NCBI GenBank assembly: GCA_036005065.1
Contig: DASYQW010000050.1
Span: 1-64,000, forward strand
From: Candidatus Methylomirabilota bacterium
GTDB taxonomy: Bacteria; Methylomirabilota; Methylomirabilia; Rokubacteriales; DASRDR01
Reading direction: 5' to 3'
DNA length: 64,000 nt
Shown here: positions 40,967 through 57,017 of the stretch, piece by piece
How the letters are laid out: each line of letters begins with the position of its first letter
Numbering within the stretch: the stretch's first letter is position 1
The notes under the pieces: generated by a model
Seen by the model: the letters and a program-made list of their open reading frames with translations, nothing else
Databases searched by the model: none
What the model was told of the DNA's origin: nothing
Made by a program: the position numbers and the translations under genes

Positions 40967-41746
40967 TCAGCCCCGCTCGCGGGTCCAGAACCCGTCCGGG
41001 TCGAAGCGGCGGATAACCGCCAGCTCCTCGGCCGTCGGGGCCGGCGTCTCGGTCACCGGGGGCGCGCAGGCCAGCGACCAGCCGGTCTGGGCCCGGACCT
41101 GGGCCACGGTCACGCCCGGATGGGTGCTGGCCAGGGCCATCTCCCGCGTCGCCGGATCGAACCGGAAGACGCCGAGCGTCGTGATCACGGCCGCCGGCCC
41201 TCCGCCGGGCAGCCCGACCCGCCCCCGCCAGTCGCCGCCCTCGCCGAACCCGGGCGAGGTGACATAATCCACGCGCTCGACGAAGCGCCGCCGCTGGTGG
41301 GTCATGATGATGACGTGGCGCCGCGCGAGGCACGCGATGTCCCCGCCCCCGCCCGACCCCGGCAGGCGCGTCAGGCGATCCGGTGGCCCCACGTAGCCGG
41401 TGTTCAGGTTGCCGAAGCGATCGATCTGGGCGCCGCCGATGAAGCCGAGATCGACGCGCCCGGCCTGGAGGAGCCCCATGATGTCCCGCATCTCGGTGCA
41501 CCAGAGGGCGCCGGCGACGTTGGGGCCGTCCGAGATCGTCACCACGAAGTCGCGGGCCGGGCTGTCGCGGACGACGCCGTTCTCGAAGAGGCCGATCGCG
41601 GAGGGCGCGTGGGTCGAGCGCGCCAGGCAGAAGGCGAGGATCGGCAGCCGCATCCCGACGAAGACCACCTCGCCGTCGTGGATCTCCCGGGCGGCGACGG
41701 CGACCATCAGCTCGCCGGGCGTGTAGTGGAGCGCCTCAGAACCCAT
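40967..41746 (-). CDS. CoA-transferase, beta subunit (glutaconate CoA-transferase/IpdB-like)
   Basis: 259 residues from ATG at 41746, overlapping the alpha-subunit stop by 11 bp. Contains YTPGELMVAVAAREIHDGEVVFVGMRLP at the start, DLGFIGGAQIDRFGNLNTGYVG and GSGGGGDIACLARRHVIIM, all typical of the B subunits of family I CoA-transferases and of IpdB-type ring hydrolases. The catalytic Glu of true CoA-transferases is not obvious, so a hydrolase role like IpdAB is an alternative. Confidence 0.82.
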   Translation of the reverse strand: MGSEALHYTPGELMVAVAAREIHDGEVVFVGMRLPILAFCLARSTHAPSAIGLFENGVVRDSPARDFVVTISDGPNVAGALWCTEMRDIMGLLQAGRVDLGFIGGAQIDRFGNLNTGYVGPPDRLTRLPGSGGGGDIACLARRHVIIMTHQRRRFVERVDYVTSPGFGEGGDWRGRVGLPGGGPAAVITTLGVFRFDPATREMALASTHPGVTVAQVRAQTGWSLACAPPVTETPAPTAEELAVIRRFDPDGFWTRERG

Positions 41747-42650
41747 AGTCCACGGGAGCCGCGAGCTGAGAGGTCTTCGGGCGCAGGGCCCCGAGCCGCG
41801 CCGGCCCGAGCTTCGCCAGGTAGCCCGCGTGATCGCCGACATCCACCACCCACTCGTGGAGCCAGGCCCGCGTGCCGTCGAGAGTCGCCGAGCGCCCGTG
41901 GTAGTCGGTATAGACGGCGTGGTCGCGGTTGTAGTGGCCCTGGACCGGCGAGGGGTGCGCGCCCCAGGGCAGATGTACCACCGCGCTCACCAGGAACCCC
42001 GGCACCAGCGTGCGGTTGGGATCGCTGCGGATCACCTCGGGCGGAACCAGCTCCTCGCAGATCACGACGACGGCCCGGCTCGCCTTGGCCGCCGCCGCCG
42101 TGACGCCGGAAGCGCCCCAGGCGTGGCAGCTCCCGTCGGCGTCGGCGCGCTGGACGTGGAGGATCGCCACGTCCGGCACCAGCGCCGGCACCAGGACGAG
42201 GGGCTGGCCGGTGAACGGGCAGGGCAGCTGGCGGAGGCGCGCGTTCCTGGCGAGGATGTCCGTGCCGAGCAGGGTGCGGGTCGGCACGTACGGCACCCCC
42301 AGGGCGGCGGCCTCGAGCGAGAGCGCCAGGGTGAAGTTCGAGTGGTCTTCGACGTCGATCGGGTGCGGGATGCCCTGTTCAACCGCCCGCCGGAAGCCGT
42401 AACCCGACCCGTGCTGGACGTTGCCGACCCACGAGGCCACCACGCGGCGAGCGCAGCCGGCGGCGATGAGCTGATCGAAGCAGACGTCCGAGATGGGGCC
42501 GATCAGCGTGAGATCCCGCCGGCGCTGGCGGATCAGCTCGTGCGCCGCCGCGAACGGGATGAGCGCTTCGAGGGCGGTTCCGAGCACGATGGCGGCGCCG
42601 TCCGGCACGTGGCGCGCCATCGCATCACGGAGGGGGACGACCTTGCTCAC
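41736..42650 (-). CDS. CoA-transferase, alpha subunit (glutaconate CoA-transferase/IpdA-like)
   Basis: 304 residues. Features SKVVPLRDAMARHVPDGAAIVLGTALEALIPFAAAHELIRQ, RDLTLIGPISDVCFDQLIAAGCARRVV and HVQRADADGSCHAWGASG. Pairs with the downstream beta subunit. Transcribed divergently from a TetR regulator, whose operator palindrome lies between them, so it may belong to the same regulon as the LivHMGF and ligase genes. Confidence 0.85.
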   Translation of the reverse strand: MSKVVPLRDAMARHVPDGAAIVLGTALEALIPFAAAHELIRQRRRDLTLIGPISDVCFDQLIAAGCARRVVASWVGNVQHGSGYGFRRAVEQGIPHPIDVEDHSNFTLALSLEAAALGVPYVPTRTLLGTDILARNARLRQLPCPFTGQPLVLVPALVPDVAILHVQRADADGSCHAWGASGVTAAAAKASRAVVVICEELVPPEVIRSDPNRTLVPGFLVSAVVHLPWGAHPSPVQGHYNRDHAVYTDYHGRSATLDGTRAWLHEWVVDVGDHAGYLAKLGPARLGALRPKTSQLAAPVDYGF

Positions 42651-42703
42651 GTCAGGATTCTACCGCGGCTCGCCGAGTCGCCGGCGGCGGCCGCGCCCGG
42701 GGC

Positions 42704-42733
42704 TTGACCGGGCGGCCGTTCTCGCGCTAGAAG
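42704..42733 (+). promoter_or_regulatory. Promoter TTGACC-18-TAGAAG for the TetR operon
   Basis: Boxes at 42704-42709 and 42728-42733 with an 18 bp spacer. The operator palindrome follows 4 bp downstream, where a bound repressor would block clearance. Confidence 0.55.
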
Positions 42734-42737
42734 GAAC

Positions 42738-42755
42738 CTACCGAACGTTTGGTAG
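42738..42755 (+). promoter_or_regulatory. 18-bp palindromic operator CTACCGAACGTTTGGTAG
   Basis: The two 9-bp halves are exact inverted repeats except one pair (G at 42743 against T at 42750). The ACCGAACGTTYGGT core resembles known TetR/FadR-type operators. It lies 9 bp before the TetR start codon, so autoregulation is very likely. Confidence 0.75.
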
Positions 42756-42764
42756 AGAGAGCCC

Positions 42765-43367
42765 GTGGCCCGTCACGAGGACATCCTGGAGCGGGCGGCC
42801 GAGGTCTTCAACGAGCTCGGCTACCGGGGCGCCTCCGTCGAGGAGGTGGCCCGCCGCGTCGGGCTGCGCAAGGGCAGCCTCTACCACCACGTCAAGAGCA
42901 AGGAGCAGCTCCTCGCCGAGGTCCTGCTGCGCGGCATGGAGCTCCTCCGGAGGGGCCTCCCCGGCGCCGACGACGCGCGCCTCTCTCCGGGCGAGAAGAT
43001 CCGGGCGGCCATCGCCTTCCACCTCGACTGGATGGCGACCGAGCCCCACGTCACCGGCGTGTTCCTCCGCGAGCTGCCCAGCCTTCCGCCGCGCCTCCGC
43101 CGGCGTCTGATGGGGGAGATCGAGGAGTTCGAAGCCCGGTGGCGCGCCCTGGTGCGGGAAGGGGTGGCGGCCGGCGCCCTCCGGGCGGACCTGGATCCGG
43201 ACGTCACCGTCTACGCGATCCTGGGGCTCGTGAACTCGGTCCACCGGTGGTACCGACCGGACGGCCGCCTCTCCATGAAGCGGATCGCCGAGCAGTGCGC
43301 CGACCTCGTGCTCGACGGCCTGCGGCCCCGCGCGGACGGCATTCCGCCACGGGCCCGACACCGGTGA
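42765..43367 (+). CDS. TetR/AcrR family transcriptional regulator
   Basis: 200 residues from GTG. The N-terminal helix-turn-helix is clear (ILERAAEVFNELGYRGASVEEVARRVGLRKGSLYHHVKSKEQLLAEVL, in parts, residues 6-55). The C-terminal ligand domain contains FHLDWMATEPHVTGVFLRELPSLPP and ends with a TetR_C-like segment. Being placed before the Liv transporter and CoA-ligase genes, its inducer is probably an aromatic or fatty acyl-CoA formed by them. Confidence 0.9.
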   Translation: MARHEDILERAAEVFNELGYRGASVEEVARRVGLRKGSLYHHVKSKEQLLAEVLLRGMELLRRGLPGADDARLSPGEKIRAAIAFHLDWMATEPHVTGVFLRELPSLPPRLRRRLMGEIEEFEARWRALVREGVAAGALRADLDPDVTVYAILGLVNSVHRWYRPDGRLSMKRIAEQCADLVLDGLRPRADGIPPRARHR

Positions 43368-43412
43368 CCGACGGCCCGGGCCCCCGGCGGAACGGACGCT
43401 GAGCGGCCCTCG

Positions 43413-44282
43413 ATGCTGCTGCAGCAGCTCGTCAACGGCCTGATGCTGGGATCGAGCTACGCGCTCATCGGGGTGGCGTTCACCCTCCTCCTCGGCATCT
43501 TCGACATGCTGAACATCGCCATCGGCGAGGTCTTCATGCTGGGCGCCTTCTTCGGCCTGACCCTCGTCGCCGCCGGGGTGCCCTTCCTGCCGGCCCTCCT
43601 CGTCGCCATGGTCCTCGCGGGACTCGTGAACCTCGTCGTCGAGCGCTTTGCCTTCCGGCCCCTCCGCGGGACGCCCCCCGTGATCCCGCTGCTGAGCAGC
43701 ATCGGCTTCTCGATGCTGCTCCAGGACACCGCCGTCAACATCTGGGGGTCGGAGCGGACCCAGTTTCCCCCCTCGATGCGCGTCGTCACCTTCGAGCTCG
43801 GCCCCGTCCTGGTCTCGTCCGTCCAGCTCGCCATCCTGGGCACGGCCGTCGTCCTGATGGTCACTCTCCACCTGCTGGTGCAACACACCAAGATCGGGCG
43901 CGGGATGCGCGCGGTGGCCGAGAGTCCCGACACGGCGAGCCTCCTCGGCGTCGACGCCGGTCGCGTCATCGTCGCGACGTTCTTCGTCTCCGGAGCCCTG
44001 GCCGGGGCGGCCGGGATCCTGGTCGGGCTCACGTTCTCGGTCGTCTCACCGTTCATCGGGATCGAGATCGGCCTCAAGGGCGTGGCCGCCATGGTGGTCG
44101 GCGGGGCCGGCAACCTCCAGGGCGCGATGCTGGCCGGGCCCCTCCTGGGGATCGCCGAGGTGCTGAGCGTGGCCTACCTGGGGGCGGCGTACCGGGACGT
44201 CGTCGTCTACGGGCTCCTCATCCTGACCCTGGTCGCACGGCCCCAGGGGCTCCTCGGCGCAGTCGAGCGCGCCCGCGTCTGA
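43413..44282 (+). CDS. LivH-type ABC transporter permease
   Basis: 289 residues, about eight membrane helices. LLQQLVNGLMLGSSYALIGVAFTLLLGIFDMLNIAIGEVFMLGAF at the start is the LivH signature region; AESPDTASLLGVDAGRVIVATFFVSGALAG is the cytoplasmic loop near residue 170. It differs clearly from the LivH at 25.4 kb (first helix GIFDMLN instead of ATTHVLN). First gene of an H-M-G-F series; the binding protein is probably that at 52497. Confidence 0.9.
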   Translation: MLLQQLVNGLMLGSSYALIGVAFTLLLGIFDMLNIAIGEVFMLGAFFGLTLVAAGVPFLPALLVAMVLAGLVNLVVERFAFRPLRGTPPVIPLLSSIGFSMLLQDTAVNIWGSERTQFPPSMRVVTFELGPVLVSSVQLAILGTAVVLMVTLHLLVQHTKIGRGMRAVAESPDTASLLGVDAGRVIVATFFVSGALAGAAGILVGLTFSVVSPFIGIEIGLKGVAAMVVGGAGNLQGAMLAGPLLGIAEVLSVAYLGAAYRDVVVYGLLILTLVARPQGLLGAVERARV

Positions 44283-44295
44283 GCGCCCGGCGACC

Positions 44296-45147
44296 ATGCT
44301 GAGCGATTATCAGCAGACCCTGCTCCTCCTGACCGGCATCAACGTCCTGCTCGGGTGGAGCGCCTACCTCCCCCTGGCCACCGGACAGCTGTCGCTCGGC
44401 AACGCGGGCTTCATGGCGGTCGGCGCCTACGCCGCCTCGCTCCTCACCGTCCAGCCCCGATGGCCGCTCCTCCCCGCCCTGGTGGCCGGGGCCCTCCTGG
44501 CCGGGGCCCTCGGCCTCCTGGTCGGCTTCCCGGCCCTCCGGCTCCGCGGCATCTATCTGGCGATCGCCACCCTCGGCTTCGGCGAGATCGTGCGCACGTT
44601 CTTCCTCAACTTCGAGCCGACGGGCGGGCCCATGGGGATGCGCGGCATGAGCGGGACCACCCCGGGGCTCGTGTGGGCCTGGGTGGGCCTCTGCGGGCTC
44701 GGCCTCTTCGCCCTCGCCCACTCACGCCTCGGCCTGGCCCTCGACGCCGTCCACGACGACGAGGTGGCGGCCGAGCTCAGCGGCCTCGACATCACCGCGC
44801 TCAAGGTAGGCGCCTTCGGCGCCGGCGCCGCGCTGGCCGGACTGGGTGGCGGCCTCTACGCGCACTACATCCTGTTCATCGAGCCGGGGACGTTCAACTT
44901 CCTCGAGTCGATCACGATGATCCTCTTCGTCCTGCTCGGCGGGATGCGCACCTTCTGGGGCACGCTGATCGGCGCCGCCGTGTTCACCATCCTGCCCGAT
45001 CTGCTGCGAGGGCTCCAGGACTGGCGCGGCGCCTTCTTCGGCGCCCTGCTGGTGGCCATCCTCATCGTCCGCCCGTGGGGACTCCTGCCGCGGGAGACCC
45101 TGCGGATCCCCCTTCGCCGCCTGGCCGGCGCCGGTGAGAGGCCCTGA
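44296..45147 (+). CDS. LivM-type ABC transporter permease
   Basis: 283 residues. Features GWSAYLPLATGQLSLGNAGFMAVGAYAASLL, GFPALRLRGIYLAIATLGFGEIVRTFFLN and AVHDDEVAAELSGLDITALKVGAF, the LivM loop near 165. Preceded 13 bp upstream by livH. It forms the heterodimeric channel with it. Confidence 0.9.
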   Translation: MLSDYQQTLLLLTGINVLLGWSAYLPLATGQLSLGNAGFMAVGAYAASLLTVQPRWPLLPALVAGALLAGALGLLVGFPALRLRGIYLAIATLGFGEIVRTFFLNFEPTGGPMGMRGMSGTTPGLVWAWVGLCGLGLFALAHSRLGLALDAVHDDEVAAELSGLDITALKVGAFGAGAALAGLGGGLYAHYILFIEPGTFNFLESITMILFVLLGGMRTFWGTLIGAAVFTILPDLLRGLQDWRGAFFGALLVAILIVRPWGLLPRETLRIPLRRLAGAGERP

Positions 45148-45211
45148 CGGAATTGATGCGTGACGTGGCCGTGCCGGCACGACGAGAAGCAGCAGCCTGC
45201 TGCTCATAACG

Positions 45212-45949
45212 ATGCTGGAAGTCCGCGGGGTCTCGAAGCAGTTCGGCGGCCTCCAGGCGGTCTCCACTCTCACGCTCACGGTGCCGGCCGACGAGATCAC
45301 GGGTCTGATCGGCCCCAACGGCGCGGGGAAGACCACGGTCTTCAACCTCATCACCGGCCTCTACCGGCCCTCGGAGGGCTCCATCCGGTTCGAGGGCACC
45401 GAGCTCCGCGGGCGGCGCCCCCATGCCATCGCGCGCCTGGGGATCGCGCGGACCTTCCAGACCGCCCGGCTCTTCCGGACGATGAGCGTGTGGGAGCACG
45501 TGCTGGTGGGGCAGCATCACCGGGCCGGGCGCGGCCCGGGGCTCTGGTGGGGCGGCCCGCGGACCCGCGCGCTCTTCGCCGAGGCGCGCGAGCCCCTCGA
45601 GCTGATGGGGCTCTGGGCCCAGCGCGAGCTGCCGGCGCTGGCCCTCTCCTACGGGGACCAGCGGCGGCTCGAGATCGCGCGGGCGCTCGCGGCCCGGCCG
45701 CGGCTCCTGCTCCTGGACGAGCCATCGGCGGGGATGAACCCGGCCGAGTCCGAGGCCCTCGTCCGGACCCTCGAGAAGGTCCGGGCGTCCGGGGTGACGC
45801 TCCTGCTGATCGAGCACGACATGTCGGTGATCATGACCCTGTGCGACCGCGTGGCCGTGCTGAACTTCGGCCGGAAGATCGCCGAGGGGAGTCCGGCCGA
45901 GGTGCAGGCGGATCCCGGAGTCCTCGAGGCCTATCTCGGGCGGGACTGA
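45212..45949 (+). CDS. LivG-type ABC transporter ATP-binding protein
   Basis: 245 residues. Walker A GPNGAGKTT at residues 34-42, the GIARTFQTARLFRTMSVWEHVLVGQ segment of LivG, signature LSYGDQRRLEIARAL and Walker B LLLLDEPSAGMNP. The 64 bp before it hold a small AGCAGCAGCCTGCTGCT hairpin (45189-45205) that may tune translation. Confidence 0.92.
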   Translation: MLEVRGVSKQFGGLQAVSTLTLTVPADEITGLIGPNGAGKTTVFNLITGLYRPSEGSIRFEGTELRGRRPHAIARLGIARTFQTARLFRTMSVWEHVLVGQHHRAGRGPGLWWGGPRTRALFAEAREPLELMGLWAQRELPALALSYGDQRRLEIARALAARPRLLLLDEPSAGMNPAESEALVRTLEKVRASGVTLLLIEHDMSVIMTLCDRVAVLNFGRKIAEGSPAEVQADPGVLEAYLGRD

Positions 45950-45953
45950 CGCC

Positions 45954-46688
45954 GTGCTCCAGGTGAGCGCTCTCCGATCCGGATACGGGCAGGCCGAGGT
46001 GCTGAAGGGCGTGTCGATCGAGGTGCGGCAAGGGGAAATCGTGACCCTCATTGGCGCCAACGGGGCCGGTAAGACGACCCTCCTCAAGACGCTGGCGGGT
46101 CTGCTTCCGACCCGCGGCGGCCGCGTCACGTACGACGGCGAGCCGATCGAGCGCCTCCCGCCCCCCGTCCGGGTCCGCCGGGGCCTGATCCTCGTCCCCG
46201 AGGGCCGCGGCATCCTCCAGCGGATGACGGTGCGGGAGAATCTCCAGATGGGCGCCTACGCCCGTCCCGCGAGGGCCGACGTCGAGGCCGACCTCGCGGC
46301 AGTGGTCCGGCGGTTCCCCGTCCTGGCCGAGCGCGCGACCCAGCCGGCCGGCACCCTCTCGGGCGGGGAGCAGCAAATGCTGGCCATCGGCCGGGCGCTC
46401 ATGGCCCGCCCTCGGCTCCTGATGGTCGACGAGCCGTCGCTCGGGCTCGCGCCGCTGCTCGTCCGGGAAATCATGCGGATCCTCGCCGAGCTGCGCGCCC
46501 GGGGGATCACGATCCTGCTGGTGGAGCAGAACGCGCGCCAGGCCCTCCAGCTCGCCGACCGCTGCTACATCCTGGCCTCCGGCCAGATCGTCGCCGGCGG
46601 GGAGGCGCGGGCGATGCTGGCGAGCCCCGAGGTGCAGGCCGCCTACCTCCGGGGCGCCGTCGCCGAGGGTTCGAGGACGCGCCCGTGA
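45954..46688 (+). CDS. LivF-type ABC transporter ATP-binding protein
   Basis: 244 residues from GTG. Walker A GANGAGKTT at residues 34-42, LILVPEGRGILQRMTVRENLQMGAY, signature LSGGEQQMLAIGRAL, Walker B LLMVDEPSLGLAP. Its stop overlaps the next start (GTGA), coupling uptake to CoA activation. Confidence 0.92.
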   Translation: MLQVSALRSGYGQAEVLKGVSIEVRQGEIVTLIGANGAGKTTLLKTLAGLLPTRGGRVTYDGEPIERLPPPVRVRRGLILVPEGRGILQRMTVRENLQMGAYARPARADVEADLAAVVRRFPVLAERATQPAGTLSGGEQQMLAIGRALMARPRLLMVDEPSLGLAPLLVREIMRILAELRARGITILLVEQNARQALQLADRCYILASGQIVAGGEARAMLASPEVQAAYLRGAVAEGSRTRP

Positions 46689-48220
46689 ACCTGGCGAGCC
46701 TCCTCGTCGATACCCACGTCGCGGAGGGCCGCGGCGCGCGGCCCGCCGTCGTCTGCGACGGACGGTGCCTCAGCTATGGCGAGCTGCTCGTGCTGGTGAA
46801 TCAGACGGGCGGGGTCCTGCGCGCGCTCGGTGTCGAGCCAGAGCAGCGCGTGGCGCTCCTGCTGCCCGACGGGCCGGAGTTCATCGCGGCCTTCCTCGCG
46901 ACCGCGAAGATCGGGGCGGTCGCCGTACCGTGCAACACGCTCCTCAAGGCGGACGAGCTGGCCTTCATCCTGAATCACAGCCGCGCCCGCGTCGTGGTGG
47001 CGCATGAGGCGACCGCGGGGGAGCTGCGCCGGGCCCGCCCGACGCTCCGGGCGCTGCGCCACGTGGTCGTGGTCGGCGCCCCCGGCCCGGGCGAGCGCGC
47101 GTACGCGGAGGCCGTCGCCGCGGCGCCGTCGACGCTCGATCCCGAGCCGGTGGATCCGGACGACGCCGTCCTGTGGGCGTACAGCTCCGGCAGCACCGGC
47201 GTCCCGAAGGCCGCGGTCCACTCCCACGAGACCCTCGCGGTGGCGAGCCGCCTCTTCCCGGACGACGTCCTCCAGATCGGGCCGGCGGACCGGTCCCTGG
47301 CCGTGCCGAAGCTGTTCTTCACCTTCGGGCTGGGGGCGAGCCTCTACATCCCGCTGCGGGCGGGCTCCACGGTCATCCTCAATCCGCGCCCGCCGGCGGC
47401 GGAAGGCATCCTCGAACTCATCGACCGCGAGCGCCCCACGCTCTTCTACGCGGTCCCCACCCATTACGTTCGCATGCTGGCGGCGCCTGATGCGGGGCGG
47501 CGCTTCGACCTCTCCTCGCTCCGGCTCTGCTTCGCCGGGGGCGAGCCGCTGGCTCCCGACGTCTACCGGCGCTGGCGGGAGACCTTCGGGCTGGAGATTC
47601 TGGAGGTGCTCGGCTCGAGCGAGGCGCTGTTTCTCTACCTCTGCAACCGCCCGCGGCGGGCCCGGCCGGGCAGCGTCGGCCGGCCCATGCCCGGCTATTC
47701 GCTTCGGCTGGTCGACGGCGACGACCACGACGTCCCGGTCGGCGAGCCGGGGACCCTCGCCATCCAGGGCCCCACCCTCTTCCACCACTATGCCCGGCGG
47801 CCCGACCTGACCCGGCGGGCCTTCCGGGGCCCGTGGTTCCTCACCGGAGACCAGTTCCGCCAGGACGAGGACGGCTACTACTGGTTCCTCGGGCGCACCG
47901 ACGACATGCTGCGGGTGGCGGGAACGTGGGTCTCGCCGGCCGAGGTCGAAGCCGTGCTGATGGCCCACCCCGCCGTGTTCGAGTGCGCGGTCGTCGGCGC
48001 CCCCGACGGTCAGGGCACCACGCGCCCCAAGGCCTACGTCGTGCCGCAGCCGGGGAACGCCTCGGCCGACGACGCCCTCCGCGCCGAGCTCGTGGCCTTC
48101 GCCCGGGAGCGGCTCGCCGCCTACAAGGTGCCCCGGTGGGTGGAGTTCGTGACCGACCTCCCCAAGACCGCGACCGGCAAGACACAACGCTTCAAGCTCC
48201 GCGCGAGCTCTCCGCCATGA
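46685..48220 (+). CDS. Benzoate-CoA ligase family protein (AMP-forming)
   Basis: 511 residues, the usual length of benzoate-CoA ligases. The AMP-binding P-loop is YSSGSTGVPKAAVHS near residues 166-180; VPKLFFTFGLGASLYIPLRAGSTVIL, LFYAVPTHYVRML, FLTGDQFRQDEDGYYWFLGRTDDMLRVAGTWVSP and the C-terminal KTATGKTQRFKLR are all close to BclA/BadA. It would convert benzoate or a related ring acid imported by LivHMGF into its CoA thioester with ATP. Confidence 0.88.
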   Translation: MNLASLLVDTHVAEGRGARPAVVCDGRCLSYGELLVLVNQTGGVLRALGVEPEQRVALLLPDGPEFIAAFLATAKIGAVAVPCNTLLKADELAFILNHSRARVVVAHEATAGELRRARPTLRALRHVVVVGAPGPGERAYAEAVAAAPSTLDPEPVDPDDAVLWAYSSGSTGVPKAAVHSHETLAVASRLFPDDVLQIGPADRSLAVPKLFFTFGLGASLYIPLRAGSTVILNPRPPAAEGILELIDRERPTLFYAVPTHYVRMLAAPDAGRRFDLSSLRLCFAGGEPLAPDVYRRWRETFGLEILEVLGSSEALFLYLCNRPRRARPGSVGRPMPGYSLRLVDGDDHDVPVGEPGTLAIQGPTLFHHYARRPDLTRRAFRGPWFLTGDQFRQDEDGYYWFLGRTDDMLRVAGTWVSPAEVEAVLMAHPAVFECAVVGAPDGQGTTRPKAYVVPQPGNASADDALRAELVAFARERLAAYKVPRWVEFVTDLPKTATGKTQRFKLRASSPP

Positions 48221-48281
48221 TGTCCCGGGCGCTCCCGCTCGCCCTGGCGGTCGGTCTCGGCGTGTGAGCGGAGAGGATCGC

Positions 48282-49127
48282 ATGGAAACTGTGAGGATCA
48301 GTCCGGCCGAGGAATTCCCTCCGGACATGCAGCGCATGTTCGAGGGGGTGAAACGCTGGTTCGGCATGCCGTTCGTGCCGAAGATGAACCGCGTCACGGC
48401 CTGGGATCCCCACTTCTGGGCCGGCTTCGGCCGATGCGGCAAGCGGGCCATGGCCGACGGCGCGCTCCCCCGCGACTTGAAGGAGATGATCGCCGTGGCG
48501 ATCAGCGCCGTGAACGCGTGCGACTACTGAGTCGTCGGCCACACGGCAGCCGGGAAGCTGCTGGGACGGACCGAGGACGCCGTCTGGTACGAGGTGGCCT
48601 ATCTGGTGGGGGCCGTGCACGGGATGAACGGGGTGGCGGACGGCCTGCGCATCCCGCTGGACTTCACGCCGGACCCGACCCGGGTCCCGCTGATGCCGCT
48701 GGTCGATCCGGCCGCGGCCGAGGGGCCGGTCAAGACGCTCTTCGACGAGATCGCCGTGTTCTTCGCGATGCCCACCCCCCCGAACCTCTACCGGGTGCTG
48801 GCCTGGGACCCCGGGTACGCGGGGGACCAGTGGCGCTATGTCCGCTATCTGTTCTCCGATGGCCAGCTCGACCGTCTGTCGAAGCACGTCGTCGCGCTGG
48901 CCGCGTCGATGGCGGCGCGGTCGGCCTACGGCATCGACTTCCACCATCGCGAGACCCGGCGCCTCGGGCTATCCGACGAGGCGATGCGAGAGGTGGTCTT
49001 CGTCACCGAGCAGTTCAACGCGGTGAACAAGATCGGCGCCTGCCTCCAGCTCGAGCCCGACATGCAGGCGGGGCTCAGCCGGCCCGGGCGAGCCGCGGGC
49101 GGCGGCGCGGCGCCCGAGTCGCCCTGA
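48282..49127 (+). CDS. Predicted selenoprotein: AhpD-like/carboxymuconolactone decarboxylase-like protein with CxxU (TGA 48528-48530 read as Sec)
   Basis: Read through one TGA, the frame gives 281 residues. The ATG at 48282 has GGAGAGG ahead. The N-terminal AhpD-like domain ends in SAVNACDY-U-VVGHTAAGK: Cys80, Sec83, His87, exactly the CxxC...H redox motif of AhpD with Sec replacing the second Cys. A second AhpD-like domain (about residues 150-275) lost its cysteines (SAYGIDFHH). The TGA is followed by a bSECIS-like hairpin at 48544-48563. A paralogue at 53752 has the same arrangement. The codons after the TGA are homologous to those of the paralogue, so a nonsense mutation is unlikely. Expected role: thiol/selenol peroxidase or disulfide reductase. 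Confidence 0.85.
48544..48563 (+). promoter_or_regulatory. Predicted bacterial SECIS hairpin
   Basis: Starting 13 bases after the TGA, CGGCAGC pairs with GCTGCTG (one G-U) around the six-base loop CGGGAA at 48551-48556; the loop begins 20 bases after the TGA. Bacterial SECIS elements sit in this range and need G in the apical loop. The same loop and inner stem are found at the second gene. Confidence 0.65.
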
Positions 49128-49142
49128 GCAGGAAGGAGCGCG

Positions 49143-50270
49143 ATGGCCAGGCGAGTGTCCGAGCCGACGACCCGGGTGGTGGGGCCGCTGCGGCGCATCG
49201 ACCAGCGGCAAGAGCTCCATACGCAGGCGGCCATCGGGGGCCTGGGCCCGCGCGTTCAGGAGCGGTGGACGTCCGAGTCGGTCGACCCTTTCCGCCGCAT
49301 CTTCTACCCTGAGACACGCCCGCAGAACGTCCCCATGCGGTCCTGGCGCGACATCGCCGACGGGCCGGTGAACCCGAAGCGGGTCGAGGTCAAAAACCCC
49401 GCGCGGATGGCCGAGATCATCAAGGGAGTGGCGCGCTTCCTGGGCGCCGACCTCGCCGGCATCTGCCGGCTCAACCCGGCCTGGGTCTTCACCCACCACG
49501 GCCTCCGGATCGACTTCCACAAGGGCAAGGCCGGCCAGCCGGTCGAGCTCCGGCACGCGTATGCCATCGCGCTCGGTCTCGAGATGGACCATGCCAACTT
49601 CGCCAACTCCCCCGACTTCATCGACAACGCCGCCGTGGGCAAGGGGTACCTCGAGGCCGCCAAGGTGGCGGTGTCCCTGGCCGCCTGGATCCGGGAGATC
49701 GGCTGGCCGGCCAAGGCCCACTTCTTCATCAGTGAGGAGGTCATCCACATCCCCATCGCCGTGGAGGCCGGCCTCGGGGAGCTGGCGCGGAACGGGTCCG
49801 TCATCACCCGGGAATTCGGGCCCCGGGTGCGCTTCGCCACGGTGACGACCGATCTGCCGCTGGCCGTGGACGCCCCGATCGACATCGGCGTCCAGGCGAT
49901 GTGCACGGACTGCAACAAGTGCGCGGTGAACTGCCCGGCCCAGTGCATTCCGTACGGACCCAAGGTGATCGAGCACAACGTCGAGAAGTGGGCCCTCGAC
50001 AACAAAGCGTGCATGACCTTCTGGGTCGCCAATCGCGAGCGCTTCAACGACTGCGCGCGCTGCATCACCACCTGCCCCTGGAACCTGCCGAATACCTGGT
50101 GGGCTCGCGTCGTGACCTGGGGCATTCCCCGGTGGCGCTGGTGGCGGAAGGGGCTGGTCTTCATCGACGACCTGATCCGGGGGAAGAAGCCGAACCCGAC
50201 GCGCCGCTGGCTCTACTACAAGGCGCCGGGCCCCAAAGAGGGGTGGACGATCCCCCCGGTGATCGAGTAG
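49143..50270 (+). CDS. Reductive-dehalogenase-like cobalamin/Fe-S protein, cytoplasmic
   Basis: 375 residues with no Tat signal. The N-terminal half contains FLGADLAGICRLNPAWVFTHHG and the C-terminal half two ferredoxin clusters: CTDCNKCAVNCP (Cys254, 257, 260, 264) and CARCITTCP (Cys304, 307, 311, with Cys290 nearby). These match RdhA-type reductive dehalogenases and their epoxyqueuosine-reductase-like relatives, which hold a corrinoid between the domains. RdhA membrane anchor RdhB is absent, as in catabolic (non-respiratory) members. It lies 15 bp after the selenoprotein gene and could share electrons or a substrate with it. Halide removal is not proven. Confidence 0.78.
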   Translation: MARRVSEPTTRVVGPLRRIDQRQELHTQAAIGGLGPRVQERWTSESVDPFRRIFYPETRPQNVPMRSWRDIADGPVNPKRVEVKNPARMAEIIKGVARFLGADLAGICRLNPAWVFTHHGLRIDFHKGKAGQPVELRHAYAIALGLEMDHANFANSPDFIDNAAVGKGYLEAAKVAVSLAAWIREIGWPAKAHFFISEEVIHIPIAVEAGLGELARNGSVITREFGPRVRFATVTTDLPLAVDAPIDIGVQAMCTDCNKCAVNCPAQCIPYGPKVIEHNVEKWALDNKACMTFWVANRERFNDCARCITTCPWNLPNTWWARVVTWGIPRWRWWRKGLVFIDDLIRGKKPNPTRRWLYYKAPGPKEGWTIPPVIE

Positions 50271-50339
50271 AGGCGTGGAGAAGCGGAATCGCGCTTCTTC
50301 CCGTGAGCGGGCCTCCGTTCGGGCCGAACTGGAGGTGCG

Positions 50340-50498
50340 ACCTACGTCGACAGGATCCTGAAGGGCGCCAAACCCGCCGACCTGCCTGTGGAGCAGCCCA
50401 GGGAGTTCGAGCTGGTCGTCAACCTCAAGACTGCGAAGGCTCTCGGTCTCACGATTCCGCAGTCGGTCCTCCTCCGGGCGGACGGGGTGCTCCAGTAG
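50340..50498 (+). pseudogene. C-terminal fragment of an ABC_sub_bind (PF04392-type) binding protein
   Basis: 52 codons [20 protein letters not shown]...[26 protein letters not shown], ending GVLQ and TAG. This is the universal C-terminus of 'ABC transporter substrate binding protein' PF04392 members. Nothing of the other about 270 residues is present upstream, where the dehalogenase-like gene ends. Confidence 0.75.
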
Positions 50499-50510
50499 GG
50501 CCGGCGAACC

Positions 50511-50538
50511 TTGACCGTCTGAGGAGTATCTGTAAGAG
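50511..50538 (+). promoter_or_regulatory. Candidate promoter TTGACC-16-TAAGAG
   Basis: Boxes at 50511-50516 and 50533-50538, 34 bp ahead of the antitoxin-like gene. Confidence 0.4.
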
Positions 50539-50571
50539 TGTGTGCGACGTCGGGGCTCTCGAGGAGAGAAT

Positions 50572-50775
50572 ATGCTGCTGATGAGTCTTTCCATCGACGA
50601 CAAATTGCTCCAGCAAGCCATCCGGCTCGGAGGACATCGAACCAAGCGGGCGACGATCAAAGAGGCGCTGCAAGAATACATTCAGCGTCGCAAGCGTCTC
50701 CGGGCTCACGCGGCCTTCGGGACGATCGACTTCGATCCGAAATACGACTACAAACGGGCCCGTAGGAAGCGGTGA
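50572..50775 (+). CDS. Orphan VapB-family antitoxin-like protein
   Basis: 67 residues from ATG at 50572 (ATG at 50581 also possible). MSLSIDDKLLQQAIRLGGHRTKRATIKEALQEYIQRRK is typical of VapB (VapB_antitoxin, MraZ-unrelated), with a basic tail FDPKYDYKRARRKR. No PIN-domain toxin follows; an acyl-CoA synthetase gene does. It may be a leftover or an antitoxin acting on the VapC of another locus. Confidence 0.75.
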   Translation: MLLMSLSIDDKLLQQAIRLGGHRTKRATIKEALQEYIQRRKRLRAHAAFGTIDFDPKYDYKRARRKR

Positions 50776-50859
50776 TCTTTCTCGCAAGGTCGGCGAGCAT
50801 GGTAGCGCACAACCGTTGGGTCGCGTCTCGGGTCGGCTGACCGGGTCCAACGCTGCCCG

Positions 50860-52500
50860 ATGCCGCTCATCGTCCCGAGGCCGATCCCGCCCGAGGTGGC
50901 CCGCGTGTACCGGGCCCAGGGGTGGTGGCTCGACCTGACGCTCACGGACGTGCTCCGCCGGCACGCGGCGGCCCGGCCGGGGGCGCCGGCCGTCATCGCG
51001 GCCGATCGCACGCTCACCTTCGCCGACCTGGAGCGCGAGAGCGCGCGGGTGGCCGCCGGCCTGGCCGCCCTCGGCGTCGGACGCGGAGACGTGGTGTCGT
51101 GCCAGCTCGCCAACGTGCCGGAGTTCCTGATCCTCCACCACGCGGCCGCCCGGCGCCGGGCCATCTTCAATCCGATTCACCTCGCCTATCGGACCGCCGA
51201 GGTGGAGTCGATCCTGCGCTTCGCCGAGAGCCGGGTGCTGGTCGTGGGTCCGCCGCACCGCGGATGGAGCTTCGCGGAGATGGCACGCGGGCTCCGGGCG
51301 CGGCTGCCCGCGCTCCGGCACGTCGTGATGGTGGGCGAGGCCGACCGGCCCGACGTGCTCCCCTTCGAGACGCTCCGGGCGGGTGACGCGCACGCCGCCG
51401 AAGGTTCGGCCCACCCGGACGACGCCTTCCTGCTCCTCTTCACCTCCGGCACCACGGCGAGTCCCAAGGCCACGCTGCACACCCACCGCCTGCGGATGGG
51501 AGCGGCCCGGGCGAGCGGCGAGGCCATCGGGTTCCGCCCGACGGATCGAGTGGTGTCCATCGCCCGCTTCAGCCACATGTGGGGAATCTTCGCCTACTGG
51601 ATGGCGCTCGGGGCCGGCGCGGCCCAGGTGCTCCTGGAGCACTTCTCCCCGGACGGGTTCCGGGACGTGGCCGGCCGGTGCCACGCCACCGTCGCCATCG
51701 GCGCGCCTCCCCACGCGGCCGACCTGCTCGCCTCGATCCCGGCGGGTGGACGGGCGCTCCCGGGCCTCCGCCTCTTCGCCCTCTCCGGGAGCGTCTGTGC
51801 CCCCGCGCTCGTCCGCGCGCTCCGCGACACCCTGAGATGCGCGCCCCTGATGCTCTGGGGCATGACGGAGACCGCCGCGGGCCTCTTCACCCGGCCGGAC
51901 GATCCGCCCGACGTGATCGAGCAGACGGTGGGCCGCCCGGCGCCGGGGTGCACGGTGGGCGTCCTCGACGACGCGGGCCGAGCCCTGCCTGCGGCCACGG
52001 AGGGCGAGCTCGTGATCCGGAGCCCCTTCGTGTTCGAGGGCTACGTGAACAACCCCGAGGCGACGGCCGCGAGCTTCACGGCGGAGGGCTGGTTCCGCAC
52101 GGGAGACCTGGCGAGCCTCGACCAGACGGGCCGCGTCCGCATCCTCGGGCGGCGCACCGAACAGATCAACCGGGGCGGCGTGAAGTTCCACCCCGGCGAC
52201 GTGGAGGATGTCCTCCTCCGCCATCCCGCGGTTCAGATGGCGGCCCTGGTCGGGATGCCCGATGCCCGCCTCGGCGAGCGCAATTGCTGCTTCGTGGTGC
52301 CCCGGCCCGGCGCGCCTGCCCTCACCCTGACGGACCTCACGGCCGCGCTGGCCGAAGCCGGGATCGCCAAGTTCAAGTGGCCCGAGCGCCTGGAGGTGGC
52401 TGACGCGCTTCCTCTCACGCCGACCGGTAAAGTCCAGCGTGCCCTGTTGCGGGAGCGCCTTCGTCAACAGCTCGATGTCCAATGGAGGGTCGACCCATGA
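50860..52500 (+). CDS. Acyl-CoA synthetase (AMP-binding, cyclohexanecarboxylate-CoA-ligase-like)
   Basis: 546 residues. P-loop LLFTSGTTASPKATLHTH near residues 188-205, LMLWGMTETAAGLFTRPDD, WFRTGDLASLDQTGRVRILGRRTEQINRGGVKFHP and C-terminal LTPTGKVQRALLRERL with the catalytic Lys. It activates a carboxylic acid (ring acid or medium-chain) to a CoA thioester. Overlaps the binding-protein gene by 4 bp, linking uptake and activation. Confidence 0.88.
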   Translation: MPLIVPRPIPPEVARVYRAQGWWLDLTLTDVLRRHAAARPGAPAVIAADRTLTFADLERESARVAAGLAALGVGRGDVVSCQLANVPEFLILHHAAARRRAIFNPIHLAYRTAEVESILRFAESRVLVVGPPHRGWSFAEMARGLRARLPALRHVVMVGEADRPDVLPFETLRAGDAHAAEGSAHPDDAFLLLFTSGTTASPKATLHTHRLRMGAARASGEAIGFRPTDRVVSIARFSHMWGIFAYWMALGAGAAQVLLEHFSPDGFRDVAGRCHATVAIGAPPHAADLLASIPAGGRALPGLRLFALSGSVCAPALVRALRDTLRCAPLMLWGMTETAAGLFTRPDDPPDVIEQTVGRPAPGCTVGVLDDAGRALPAATEGELVIRSPFVFEGYVNNPEATAASFTAEGWFRTGDLASLDQTGRVRILGRRTEQINRGGVKFHPGDVEDVLLRHPAVQMAALVGMPDARLGERNCCFVVPRPGAPALTLTDLTAALAEAGIAKFKWPERLEVADALPLTPTGKVQRALLRERLRQQLDVQWRVDP

Positions 52501-53741
52501 TGAGCCGTCGCGACCACCCCGCCGCCCTCTGGACGCGCCGCCAGGCACTGGCCGGCCTCGGGAGCGGAGTCGCCCTCGCCTCCCTGCCCCGCGTGCTCTC
52601 GGCTCAGGCTCGGCTGGCCGGCGCGGAGGTGAAGCTGGGCGCCGCCTTCCCTCTCACCGGCATCTGGTCCGAGTGGGGCAAGAAGGACAAGGTCGCCCTC
52701 GACATGGCCGTCGAGGAGATCAACGCCGCTGGCGGCGTGGGGGGGGTCCCCGTGCGCTACGCCATCTACGACACGGCGAGCAAGCCGCCCGACGCGGCCG
52801 CCCTGGTGCGACGCCTGGCCAGCGACGACAAGGTCCTCGCCATCCTCGGGCCGTTCTCGAGCTCGGAGTGTGAGGTCGCCTTCCCCGTCGGCGTCCAGCT
52901 CAAGATCCCCATGATCGCCCAGGCCTCCTCCAAGCCCGGCATCGGCGCCGCGAACCGCCCCTGGGCGTTTCGGATGAACGTCGACGAGGGGCGCATGGCC
53001 CAGCCGGCCGTGAAGTTCTGGGTCAAGCACTACTCCGTGAAGACCGCCGCCGTCGTCCACGACGTCAAGGACGCTGTCGGGCAGATCCTGGGCTCGCGCG
53101 TGCTCCCGGCGGTGGCCAAGCAGAACGGCGTCGCCCTGGTCAACGAGGGCGATTTCGTCACCTTCCAGACCAAGGACATCGACTTCAGCCCCCAGGTCAC
53201 GAAGCTCCGGGGCCTCCGGTTCGACGGGCTGATCTTCGGTGGGGCGTTCCCGGACGCCATCAACTTCGTGAAGGAGGCGCGGCGGCAGGGCTTGCGCCAG
53301 CCCATCGTGGGCGGCAACCCCCTGATGCACGAGAACTTCGCCCGCAACACCGGCGAGGCGGGCGAGGGCGTGGTGGCCCCCACCCCGTGGAACCCGTCGC
53401 TCCCCGACGAGCGCGTCCAGGCCTTCGTCCGGAAGTTCGCCGAGCGGGCGCAGGCGGCGGGACTCCCGCCGACGCCCGAGATGGTGAACGTGAACGTCTA
53501 CGAGACCGTGTCTCTCCTCAAGGACATCGTCGAGCGGAAGGGGGCGACGAACCGGCCGGAGGACCTCGCCCGGGATCGCGAGCGGATCATGCAGGGCCTC
53601 ACGGAGACCGCGTCGTTCCCGGGGCTCGCCGGCAAGTTCGGGTTCAACCAGGAGGGCGACGGCGTCAAGGACGTGTATGTCATGATGGTCAAGAACGGCC
53701 GGTGGGCCCAGGTCGACTTCGCGCCCGCCCAGGCCCGATGA
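52497..53741 (+). CDS. Branched-chain amino-acid-type ABC transporter substrate-binding protein
   Basis: 414 residues from ATG at 52497. A twin-arginine-like signal (WTRRQALAGLGSGVALASLPRVLSA) leads into a LivJ-type fold: VKLGAAFPLTGIWSEWGKKDKVALDMAVEEINAAGGVGG, ILGPFSSSECEVAFPVGVQLKIPMIAQ. It is likely the receptor for LivHMGF at 43.4-46.7 kb, which lacks its own. Confidence 0.9.
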   Translation: MMSRRDHPAALWTRRQALAGLGSGVALASLPRVLSAQARLAGAEVKLGAAFPLTGIWSEWGKKDKVALDMAVEEINAAGGVGGVPVRYAIYDTASKPPDAAALVRRLASDDKVLAILGPFSSSECEVAFPVGVQLKIPMIAQASSKPGIGAANRPWAFRMNVDEGRMAQPAVKFWVKHYSVKTAAVVHDVKDAVGQILGSRVLPAVAKQNGVALVNEGDFVTFQTKDIDFSPQVTKLRGLRFDGLIFGGAFPDAINFVKEARRQGLRQPIVGGNPLMHENFARNTGEAGEGVVAPTPWNPSLPDERVQAFVRKFAERAQAAGLPPTPEMVNVNVYETVSLLKDIVERKGATNRPEDLARDRERIMQGLTETASFPGLAGKFGFNQEGDGVKDVYVMMVKNGRWAQVDFAPAQAR

Positions 53742-53751
53742 GGAGGCCCCG

Positions 53752-54573
53752 ATGGAGATCGTACGCATCCCCGAAGTCCACGAGCTCGAGCCGGAGGACC
53801 AGCGGTTCATGGAGGCCACCAAGGCCTGGTTCAAGATCGACTTCGTCCCGAAGATGAGCCGCGTGCTCCGGACCATCCCCGAGTTCGGGCGCCCCTACAA
53901 CCGGGCCGGACGGCGCGCCATGCAGGACGGGGCGCTCACCCGGGGCCAGAAGGAGCTGATCGCGGCGACGGTGAGCGCCATCAACGTGTGCGAATACTGA
54001 ACGGTCGCCCACAGCGCAGCCGGGAAGCTGCAAGGCTTCGGTGACGACCTGATCTGGTACGAGCTCGCGTACGTGGCCGGGGTGACCCACGGGCTCAACT
54101 CGGTCGCCGACGGCCTCCGCCTCCCGCTCGACTTCTCGCCATCCTCCCGCGTCCCGCTCGGGCCGCTGGCCGACCCGGACAGCGCCTCGCCCGAGGTCGA
54201 GGCGACCTTCCACGACATCAAGACCTTCTACGCAATGGACCGGCCGCCGGCCGTGTTTCGGTGGCTGGCCCGGGATCCCGGCTTCCTCAAGGACTACTGG
54301 GGGGCCACGCGGGAGGCCTTCGTGGACCGGAAGCTCGATCGGCTGACCAAGGAGATCCTGGCGCTGGCCGCCTCGCTCACCGCCAAGTCGGACTACGGCG
54401 TCGATCTCCACCTCCGCGAGGTCCGGCGGCTGGGACTCTCGGAGCAGGGCCTCACCGAGGCGGTCGAGACCGTCCAGCTGTTCAACACGGTGACCAAGAT
54501 CGCCGACGCCCTCCAGCTCCAGCCCGACTTCGACCCGCAGCCGTCTCCGGCGGCCGGGCCCGGCGGCGCGTGA
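53752..54573 (+). CDS. Predicted selenoprotein: second AhpD-like CxxU protein (TGA 53998-54000 read as Sec)
   Basis: Read through one TGA, 273 residues. ATG follows GAGGAGG. The motif is SAINVCEY-U-TVAHSAAGKL: Cys80, Sec83, His87, at the same residue numbers as in the gene at 48282. After the TGA comes the same GCAGC-CGGGAA-GCTGC hairpin, its loop again 20 bases away. The second AhpD-like domain is cysteine-free (SDYGVDLHL). N-terminal halves of the two paralogues are only moderately alike (FVPKM, RAM.DGAL conserved), so conservation of the TGA shows selection. Its stop overlaps the coxL-like start (GTGA), so it is in the same operon. Confidence 0.85.
54016..54031 (+). promoter_or_regulatory. 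Predicted bacterial SECIS hairpin (second gene)
   Basis: GCAGC (54016-54020), loop CGGGAA (54021-54026), GCTGC (54027-54031), with the loop 20 bases after the TGA. Outer AGC...GCT pairs may extend it. Identical inner stem and loop to 48546-48561 in spite of protein divergence. Confidence 0.65.
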
Positions 54574-57017
54574 CGACGACCGGGCGCGCGGTCGGGCAGC
54601 CCCTGAAGCGCGTGGAGGACGCGCGCCTCCTGGCGGGCAAGGGCACCTTCATCGATGACCTTCCGTTCCACAACCTCCACCACGCCGCGATCCTGCGCTC
54701 GCCCCACGCCCACGCCCGCATCGGCGCCATCGACGGTTCGGCGGCGCTGAAGGCGCCGGGCGTGGTCGGGATCGTGACCGGCGAGGATGCCGAGCGCCTG
54801 ACCCGCCCGTTCTCGGTCGGAGTGACGACGCCGGCCCGCTACTACTGCCTGGCCGTCGGCAAGGCGCGCTTCGTCGGCGAGCCGGTGGCGGTCGTCGTGG
54901 CCCGGAGTCGCTACCTCGCCGAGGATGCCCTCGACCTGATCCGGGTGGAGTACGAGCCGCTCCCCGCCGTGGTCGACCCCGAGCAGGCCCTCGCGCCCGA
55001 AGCGCCCGTCCTCCACGACGCCGTCGGCACGAATCTCGCGTGCCACCGCCACCTGGTCTACGGCGACCCGGAGCGCGCCTTCCGGGAGGCGGACGTGGTG
55101 ATCAGCGAGCGCTTCCGCTTCCCCAAGTTCTCCTCGACGCCGATCGAGACCTACGGGATCGTGGCGAGCTTCGACCCGGGGAGCGGCGTCCTGACCGTCT
55201 GGTCGAACTTCATGGGCCCGTTCATCATGCATCCCCTGGTGGCGCGAGCCCTCGGCGTCCCCGAGAACCGGCTCCGGTTCATCGTCCCGCCCGACATCGG
55301 GGGGAGCTTCGGCATCAAGACCAGCATGTATCCCTACCTCGCCCTCCTGGGCCTCACGGCCATGCGGACGGGGGTGGCCGTCAAGTGGATCGAGGACCGG
55401 CGTGAGCACCTCCTCGCGGCCTCCAGCGGCACCGACCGCGTCGCCTATCGCGACCTGGCGGCGAAGAAGGACGGCACCGTGCTGGCCATGCGGAACCGCT
55501 GGTTCGACAACGTCGGGGGGTACATCCGGAGCCCCGAGCCCGGCTGCAGCTTCCGGCCCATCGGGAACTGGGTCGGGCCCTACCGGTTCCAGCACCTCGA
55601 GGTCGACGCCTCGGTGGTGATGACCAACAAGTGCCCGACCGGCCCGAACCGCGGCTACGCCTGCGGCCACCTCTACTTCGAGACCGAGCGCATGATGGAT
55701 CTCCTGGCCGAGCGCCTCGGCCTCGACCCGGCGGAGGTGCGCCGCCGGAACTTCATCCAGCCCGGGGAGTTCCCGTACCGCACGCCCACCGGCGGCCTCT
55801 ACGACTCCGGCGACTATCCGGCCGCCTTCGCGAAGGCGCTCGAGCTCGCGCGCTACACCGAGCTGCGGCGCGAGCAGGCCCGGGCCCGCGCGGAGGGGCG
55901 CCTGTTCGGCATCGGCCTGGCGGTGTGCGTGGACCCCTCGGTCTCGAACATGGGCTACGTGACGATCGCCCTCGACCCGCAGTTCCGGGCCAAGCCCGAG
56001 TACCTCCCGAAGTCCGGCGCCATCGAATCGGCCACCTGCAAGATCGACCCGCTGGGGAAGGTCCTCGTGATCATGAACAGCACGCCCCAGGGCCAGGGCC
56101 ACCAGACGATCGTCGGCCAGATCGTCGCCGACGAGCTGGGGATCGCACCCGACGAGGTGCAGGTGGTCGACGAGATGGATACCTTCACCCGCGTCTGGGG
56201 AATCTCGTCGGGGACGTACTCGAGCCGCTTCGGCTCCGTGGGGACGAGCGCCGCCGCCCTCGCCGCCCGGAAGCTCAAGGCGAAGCTCGTCCAGTACGGC
56301 GCCCACCTCATGAGCCTGCCGGCCGACGGCCTGGAGGTGCGCGACGGGATGGTGACGCCGAAGACGGGCACGGGCCCGTCGTACTCGCTGAAGGACATGG
56401 CCGGACGGGCCCACTGGCACACCGAGTCGCTCCCCGACGGCATGGAAGCCGGGCTCCAGGCCACCGCCGTCTTCAGCTTCCCCCAGGCCGACGCCCCCGA
56501 CCTCCAGGACCGCGTCAACTCGTCGAACACCTACGGCTTCATCGCCGAGGTCATGGCCGTCGAGGTGGACCCGGAGACGGGCGCCGTGAAGATCCTCCGC
56601 TACGTGACCGTCCACGACGCCGGGACGATCATCAACCCGATGATCGCCGAAGGCCAGATCTACGGCGGCGCGCTCCACGGGCTCGGCGGCGCGCTCTACG
56701 AGGAGCTCGCCTACGACCAGGACGGCCAGCTCCTGACGGGGACGTTCATGGATTACCTGGTCCCCACCGCCAGCGAAGCGCCGACGCTCGACATCGCCCA
56801 TGTGGTCTCGCCGTCCCCGTTCACCACGCTCGGCGCCAAGGGCCTCGGGGAAGCCAGCTCGATGACCGCCCCGGCGGTGGTGGCCAACGCGGTGAGCGAC
56901 GCCCTGGCGCCGCGGGGCCTTCGGATCCGCGAGCTGCCGGTCACTCCGACGCGTCTCTGGGAGCTGCTCGAGACCGCGCCGGGAGGCCGTGCCGGTGGCG
57001 CGGCGGCCCGGACATGA
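54570..57017 (+). CDS. Xanthine dehydrogenase-family molybdopterin-binding subunit (CoxL-like large subunit)
   Basis: 815 residues from GTG overlapping the preceding stop. Aldehyde oxidase/xanthine dehydrogenase a/b hammerhead at the start (VGQPLKRVEDARLLAGKGTFIDDL) and molybdopterin-binding segments DIGGSFGIKTSMYPYLALLGLTAM, NRGYACGHLYFETERMMDLLAE, QGQGHQTIVGQIVADELGI and the catalytic-Glu region AKGLGEASSMTAPAVV. The AYRCSFR copper loop of true CO dehydrogenase is not present, so it is a hydroxylase of a ring or aldehyde substrate (perhaps a hydroxybenzoyl-CoA-reductase-like activity). Confidence 0.9.
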   Translation: MTTTGRAVGQPLKRVEDARLLAGKGTFIDDLPFHNLHHAAILRSPHAHARIGAIDGSAALKAPGVVGIVTGEDAERLTRPFSVGVTTPARYYCLAVGKARFVGEPVAVVVARSRYLAEDALDLIRVEYEPLPAVVDPEQALAPEAPVLHDAVGTNLACHRHLVYGDPERAFREADVVISERFRFPKFSSTPIETYGIVASFDPGSGVLTVWSNFMGPFIMHPLVARALGVPENRLRFIVPPDIGGSFGIKTSMYPYLALLGLTAMRTGVAVKWIEDRREHLLAASSGTDRVAYRDLAAKKDGTVLAMRNRWFDNVGGYIRSPEPGCSFRPIGNWVGPYRFQHLEVDASVVMTNKCPTGPNRGYACGHLYFETERMMDLLAERLGLDPAEVRRRNFIQPGEFPYRTPTGGLYDSGDYPAAFAKALELARYTELRREQARARAEGRLFGIGLAVCVDPSVSNMGYVTIALDPQFRAKPEYLPKSGAIESATCKIDPLGKVLVIMNSTPQGQGHQTIVGQIVADELGIAPDEVQVVDEMDTFTRVWGISSGTYSSRFGSVGTSAAALAARKLKAKLVQYGAHLMSLPADGLEVRDGMVTPKTGTGPSYSLKDMAGRAHWHTESLPDGMEAGLQATAVFSFPQADAPDLQDRVNSSNTYGFIAEVMAVEVDPETGAVKILRYVTVHDAGTIINPMIAEGQIYGGALHGLGGALYEELAYDQDGQLLTGTFMDYLVPTASEAPTLDIAHVVSPSPFTTLGAKGLGEASSMTAPAVVANAVSDALAPRGLRIRELPVTPTRLWELLETAPGGRAGGAAART

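Follow-up and report, generated by a model that had tools for sequence, protein, structure and literature searches.

The presence of a TGA codon inside the redox motif of an AhpD-like gene raises the question of whether this codon ends the protein or is read as selenocysteine (Sec) and, in the latter case, which chemistry the product performs. The gene (gene 1) lies in a 64-kb stretch of DNA, here called the window, together with a paralogue 5 kb away (gene 2) on which the first-pass annotation was silent; the features of both are collected in Table 1. Judging from the sequences compared, gene 1 almost certainly encodes a Sec-containing AhpD-like protein. Sec encoding, the constraint on a downstream hairpin, the predicted fold and the relay residues are supported by computation, and a peroxidase or thiol-oxidoreductase chemistry is probable from family membership.

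Table 1. Coordinates (in the window) of the two genes and of their coding and RNA features
Feature	Position	Strand	Description
Gene 1, two-unit AhpD/CMD-like selenoprotein gene (predicted)	48282..49127	+	281 codons, TGA83 as Sec, stop TGA
Sec-encoding TGA of gene 1 (predicted), codon 83	48528..48530	+	motif C80-D-Y-U83-V-V-G-H87
First AhpD unit of gene 1	48282..48671	+	residues about 1-130; relay E68, C80, Y82, U83, H87
Second AhpD unit of gene 1	48675..49070	+	residues about 132-263; both redox residues lost, His221 kept
Predicted bSECIS of gene 1	48531..48578	+	folded within 48529-48580
Apical hairpin of gene 1	48544..48563	+	arms CGGCAGC (48544-48550) and GCTGCTG (48557-48563), loop CGGGAA (48551-48556)
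Gene 2, paralogue of gene 1 (predicted)	53752..54573	+	same architecture; 273 codons, TGA83 as Sec, stop TGA
Sec-encoding TGA of gene 2 (predicted), codon 83	53998..54000	+	motif CEYU-TVAH
Apical hairpin of the predicted bSECIS of gene 2	54016..54031	+	arms GCAGC and GCTGC, loop CGGGAA; same loop and spacing as gene 1

The interrupted reading frame and its homologues

The translation of gene 1 is open from its start to its terminal TGA with the single interruption at codon 83, and the flanking residues, NACDY-TGA-VVGHTAAGK, are exactly those described by the first-pass annotation; ordinary annotation (table 11) cuts the gene into two ORFs of 88 and 177 aa. In the six frames of the window only four TGAs are flanked by long open coding-like sequence; those at 43365 and 57887 are ordinary gene ends and the remaining two are codon 83 of gene 1 and codon 83 of gene 2, so that the pattern seen in gene 1 is more than chance would give.

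Of 95 genomes searched in the phylum, 37 contained matches. The sequence extends across the motif column in 39 loci (34 genomes), gene 1 and gene 2 included, and the column is TGA in all 39, with no other internal stop in any of them; this count leaves aside three loci (L062, L063 and L064) whose best match stops short of the motif. Outside the phylum, a scan of GTDB genomes added three members that likewise have TGA, from Tectomicrobia (L072), the MAG JZ-2 (L067) and the chromosome of a Dehalococcoidia bacterium (L086). Ca. Rokubacteria is the name on the majority of the remaining close records, from which the host of gene 1 and gene 2 is apparently a member of this group (Methylomirabilota). 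An exchange between Cys and Sec at residue 83 had been proposed as a check: TGA occupies the site in 42 of the 42 family members covering it (39 in the phylum and three outside) and Cys in none, or in 40 of 40 close relatives when gene 1 and gene 2 are excluded, whereas all 36 motifs scored in distant relatives (Pseudomonadota, Methanoperedens, Actinomycetota and others) have Cys in this column. The Cys-bearing relatives differ in architecture from the two-unit Sec proteins. Plasmids yielded only distant CMD proteins, none of which reached 80% query coverage.

The sequence 3' of the TGA is kept at the protein level: pN/pS lies at about 0.1-0.4 in the majority of close pairs, slightly above the upstream values and well below 1, and the second AhpD unit is well kept across homologues. 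One of the covered loci (L057, 1157-1896, genome G073) has the halves of its homologue in two separate frames, which may reflect a broken copy or a fault of the assembly.

A tree of 65 sequences unites all the Sec rows in one clade (support 99/99), although some deep joins are unsure owing to long branches. Gene 1 and gene 2 are about 51% identical; the former is a lone branch and the latter falls within a subclade whose sister is the Tectomicrobia/JZ-2 pair, so the two are old paralogues, as opposed to a tandem duplicate of recent date. The genome assembly yielded no third copy. The Dehalococcoidia copy (L086, 5001-5771, chromosome OX638353.1) is nested in the main Rokubacteria group, a position that suggests horizontal transfer of the selenoprotein gene. 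Other AhpD-like genes that carry TGA at the CxxU site lie outside the clade of gene 1 and gene 2 (L071, about 6482-7135, and L064, with CNF-TGA-LTVH and CRY-TGA-LQVH), so several families of AhpD selenoproteins seem to be present in Rokubacteria.

Selenocysteine machinery and the predicted bSECIS element

The source assembly (5.6 Mb, 419 contigs, 97.9% complete, 4.4% contamination) contains all the genes for Sec insertion whose presence had been made a check of the proposal. In particular, selA (E 8e-155), selB (E 2e-108) and tRNA-Sec (76 bits, anticodon TCA) are found together within 5 kb on contig C299, and selD (E 3e-116) on contig C222; given the fragmentation and contamination of the assembly, these genes are tied to the contig of gene 1 and gene 2 by binning only. 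The selD gene (L066, G000 C222:26823) is itself a selenoprotein gene, with TGA in HGAG-U-ACK (the HGAG-U-xCK site). In the phylum, selB scores above cut-off in 83 of the 95 genomes examined, and 63 selenoprotein genes have been predicted in one MAG of Methylomirabilota (PMC13188914). The first-pass annotation had named a lack of sel genes or an unconserved downstream region as grounds for abandoning the selenoprotein; both points were looked at, and the sel genes are present and the downstream region is conserved.

The hairpin with a CGGGAA loop announced after the TGA is present, its loop starting 20 nt past this codon. Folding of 48529-48580 gives -26.8 kcal/mol (z -3.3), a value matched by none of 200 shuffles. 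A published bSECIS model (loop of 3-9 nt with an early G, stem of 4-16 bp, spacing of 16-37 nt, MFE <= -7.5; PMC13188914) was applied to the hairpin alone by a purpose-written script; gene 1 agrees with it (loop CGGGAA, 7 bp, 20 nt, -10.1 kcal/mol for the hairpin alone), as do 28 of the 39 TGA genes, versus three of the 36 Cys relatives. The other 11 TGA genes, gene 2 among them, retain this loop with a stem of five pairs and do not reach the limit, at -5.9 to -6.6 without a lower stem; the hairpin of gene 2 alone (5 bp, -6.6 kcal/mol) thus falls short of -7.5, and its 50-nt region reaches -20.6 with the lower stem, with no clear gain over shuffles (z -1.2). An Rfam scan of 41000-57000 returned only sub-threshold chance matches.

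The inner 16-nt core, GCAGCCGGGAAGCTGC, is identical in nearly all homologues, is common to the three members outside the phylum set and occurs in none of the 36 Cys relatives. As the inner stem hardly varies, covariation is uninformative and synonymous constraint was used instead. Ala89 is encoded by GCA in 36 of 38 sequences, a codon that accounts for 4.4% of Ala codons in these genes; sequences with Thr88 nearly always use ACT for it (background 7%); and the codons of Ala90 (GCC), Gly91 (GGG), Lys92 (AAG) and Leu93 (CTG) are invariant. The synonymous excess of codons 88-93 (+0.455) is the highest of the 247 six-codon windows in the gene (mean 0.069, sd 0.076), a value to be read as a ranking and not as a probability because related sequences are not independent. 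The bSECIS check gives a bSECIS-like hairpin after the TGA whose codons are synonymously constrained.

Two other readings of the codon have to be weighed against Sec. If the TGA were a true stop, due to a pseudogene, a truncation or a sequencing error that splits an ordinary Cys gene, the two ORFs of the default annotation would be the expected outcome, and gene prediction alone does not distinguish a Sec TGA from a stop; however, TGA stands in the same column in two genes here, in 37 other loci of the phylum and in three outside it, the sequence 3' of it evolves as coding and the hairpin codons are frozen, which makes a true stop extremely improbable. Translation of the TGA as another amino acid, e.g., Trp through near-cognate read-through or code reassignment, agrees with the open frame and with nothing more, and hardly any likelihood is left to it: TGA terminates other genes of the window as well as gene 1 and gene 2 themselves, the column is Cys in the 36 distant relatives, and tRNA-Sec is present with selA, selB and selD. 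The description of gene 1 as a real selenoprotein is thus supported by the conservation of the TGA, the sel genes, the hairpin constraint and the coding character of the downstream region.

Architecture, predicted catalysis and gene context

The product of gene 1 is a tandem of two AhpD units of about 130 residues. Its scores are above cut-off for PF02627 (Pfam CMD, 79.9 bits vs 23) and for TIGR00778 (AhpD core, 64.6 bits vs 27.8), while the proteins of both genes miss all the NCBIfam models more specific than the AhpD core. The units are recognisable as duplicates: unit 1 of gene 1 shares 29% identity with unit 2 of gene 2 in an alignment of 117 residues. Residues E68, C80, Y82, U83 and H87 are invariant in 30 sequences and have the spacing of the relay of PA0269, the AhpD of P. 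aeruginosa (Glu36-Cys48-Tyr50-Cys51-His55; PMC3141380), with Sec replacing the second Cys. An AlphaFold model with Cys for Sec is all-helical (pLDDT 93, pTM 0.89); the top PDB matches in Foldseek are the AhpD-like peroxidase-related structures 2pfx, 3c1l, 6k40 and 2prr, and a single unit superposes on 2ouw at 1.5-1.8 A. The second unit (window 48675-49010) also has a weak profile match to (R)-2-haloacid dehalogenases (5gzx, E 6e-6), with a poor whole-chain superposition.

On these bases a mechanism can be proposed in which SelB and Sec-tRNA would decode UGA83 as selenocysteine, the codon being flagged by the mRNA hairpin whose apical loop starts 20 nt downstream. Unit 1 carries the full proton relay (Glu68, Cys80, Tyr82, Sec83 and His87), and unit 2, devoid of redox residues, is a scaffold. 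With His87 and Glu68 activating it, the selenol would most likely attack a peroxide or another oxidised substrate; Cys80 would then resolve it by forming an Se-S bond with Sec83, which a thiol or a cellular dithiol donor may reduce. The attacking role is assigned to Sec83 because its place relative to the His, four residues ahead of His87, is that of Cys133 in Mtb AhpD, the presumed attacking residue of that enzyme. The first-pass annotation had placed the TGA at the C-terminal Cys of the CxxC in the AhpD motif, which is correct, and had called this residue the resolving cysteine, a label made doubtful by the attacking role; in Mtb AhpD a Cys in this place, beside the catalytic His, is more likely to attack than to resolve.

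The neighbourhood of gene 1 offers several metabolic associations. A benzoate-CoA-ligase family gene precedes it, and directly downstream a gene on the + strand (49143-50270) encodes a reductive-dehalogenase-like (RDH-like) Fe-S protein (156.6 bits for TIGR02486, cut-off 160.35). The stretch 41736-57886 also includes a CoA-transferase, a TetR regulator, a LivHMGF-type transporter with its binding protein, a second acyl-CoA ligase and the large subunit of a molybdenum hydroxylase; from these gene assignments it is possibly a locus for organic-acid or aromatic catabolism. The window neighbours do not recur around the homologues, besides scattered weak matches to common families, and no RDH-like gene was found near the 38 loci examined (E 1e-15, flank up to 5 kb); since the neighbours are not kept in relatives, no function can be read clearly from gene context. 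A RidA-like gene often adjoins the AhpD-like selenoprotein gene in the main Rokubacteria group (11 loci, among them L080, L083, L088 and L090), and the clustering of flanking ORFs gave two more recurrent neighbour families in this group.

Two readings of the protein depart from the probable peroxidase. The Sec enzyme might act as a selenol-based reductive dehalogenase or as another oxidoreductase in aromatic-acid catabolism, as its place between the benzoate-CoA-ligase family gene and the RDH-like gene would allow; moreover, the Foldseek matches include a D-2-haloacid dehalogenase and Bmp8 (6ohi/6ohj), a debrominase with the AhpD fold. This function is unlikely, as the nearest matches in both sequence and structure are peroxidase-related AhpD proteins, the superposition on the haloacid dehalogenase is poor (TM about 0.25), and the neighbourhood is not kept, with an RDH-like gene found at E 1e-15 near none of the 38 loci examined, over flanks of up to 5 kb. 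By analogy with Bmp8 and with the Sec-containing deiodinases, a Sec-only two-unit AhpD subfamily extending from Rokubacteria to Tectomicrobia and Chloroflexota could be imagined to use its selenol for a non-peroxide reaction such as reductive dehalogenation, an extension that we consider quite improbable. The two AhpD units, one of them active, also recall the sestrins, and a bacterial fusion of sestrin type near the ancestry of the eukaryotic proteins might be read into a weak match of gene 1 to Pfam PA26 (E 1.3e-4, 21.5 bits) and into the fused AhpD-like protein on record for Rokubacteria (PMC11429811). However, the PA26 score is under the cut-off (29.4) for gene 1, the match is absent for gene 2, and sestrins appear neither among the 50 best PDB fold matches in Foldseek nor in the PDB sequence search, which makes such an origin very improbable. 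The preferred reading remains a Sec-containing AhpD-like protein, probably with peroxidase or thiol-oxidoreductase activity.

Comparison with known systems

AhpD-like selenoproteins with a CxxU motif had been cited as already known, and in fact peroxidase-related CxxU proteins of the TIGR01926 class have been described since 2005 from the Sargasso Sea (PMC1088965), and several CxxU AhpD-like families are listed in a 2026 review (PMC13188914). As in the TIGR01926 class, the AhpD core of the two window proteins contains CxxU, most homologues have Cys instead and a predicted bSECIS follows closely; the two proteins differ from this class in their scores (54.9 and 62.4 bits, below the cut-off of 81.8) and in having two full AhpD units in about 270-280 residues versus a model of 178 residues. 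NF041238 (AhpD_rel_CFYUT) is likewise a family of CxxU AhpD-related selenoproteins, for which the two proteins reach 24.9 and 50.2 bits, below the cut-off of 175; their residues 56-89 map to positions 212-245 of its 357, so that the CxxU is late there and early here. Other (seleno)protein families, i.e., the GSU3128 family (NF041047), the YciW-related GroundWater_YciW (NF053654), ArsM/AhpD (NF041537) and MduS (NF045649), align partially and far below cut-off.

Mtb AhpD and PA0269 have the five-residue relay Glu-Cys-His/Tyr-Cys-His with the same spacing (PMC3141380), but with Cys and not Sec at the second position; being shorter (145-177 residues), they have no tandem of two complete 130-residue units. 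Sestrins resemble the window proteins in their two AhpD-like units, one of which is redox-active, and differ from them in that here Sec stands in a bacterial protein, the Pfam score is under cut-off and the best fold matches include no sestrin. The Rokubacterium fused protein has a sestrin-like architecture and may be the protein described here; the word selenocysteine is absent from its report (PMC11429811).

The literature on Rokubacteria selenoproteins, in a coverage without PMC12013261 (Haft and Tolstoy 2025), gave nothing on this family, and this well-supported subfamily of two-unit, Sec-only proteins whose Sec lies in unit 1 appears neither among the NCBIfam models nor in the literature examined. 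The two genes support the use of selenium in redox enzymes of Rokubacteria, and their compact, almost sequence-invariant bSECIS core provides a handle on what the SelB of this phylum recognises. What is new with respect to the known CxxU AhpD-like selenoproteins is a two-unit branch that standard gene calling splits in two and that, among the sequences examined, always has Sec and never Cys, the latter being found only in distant relatives.
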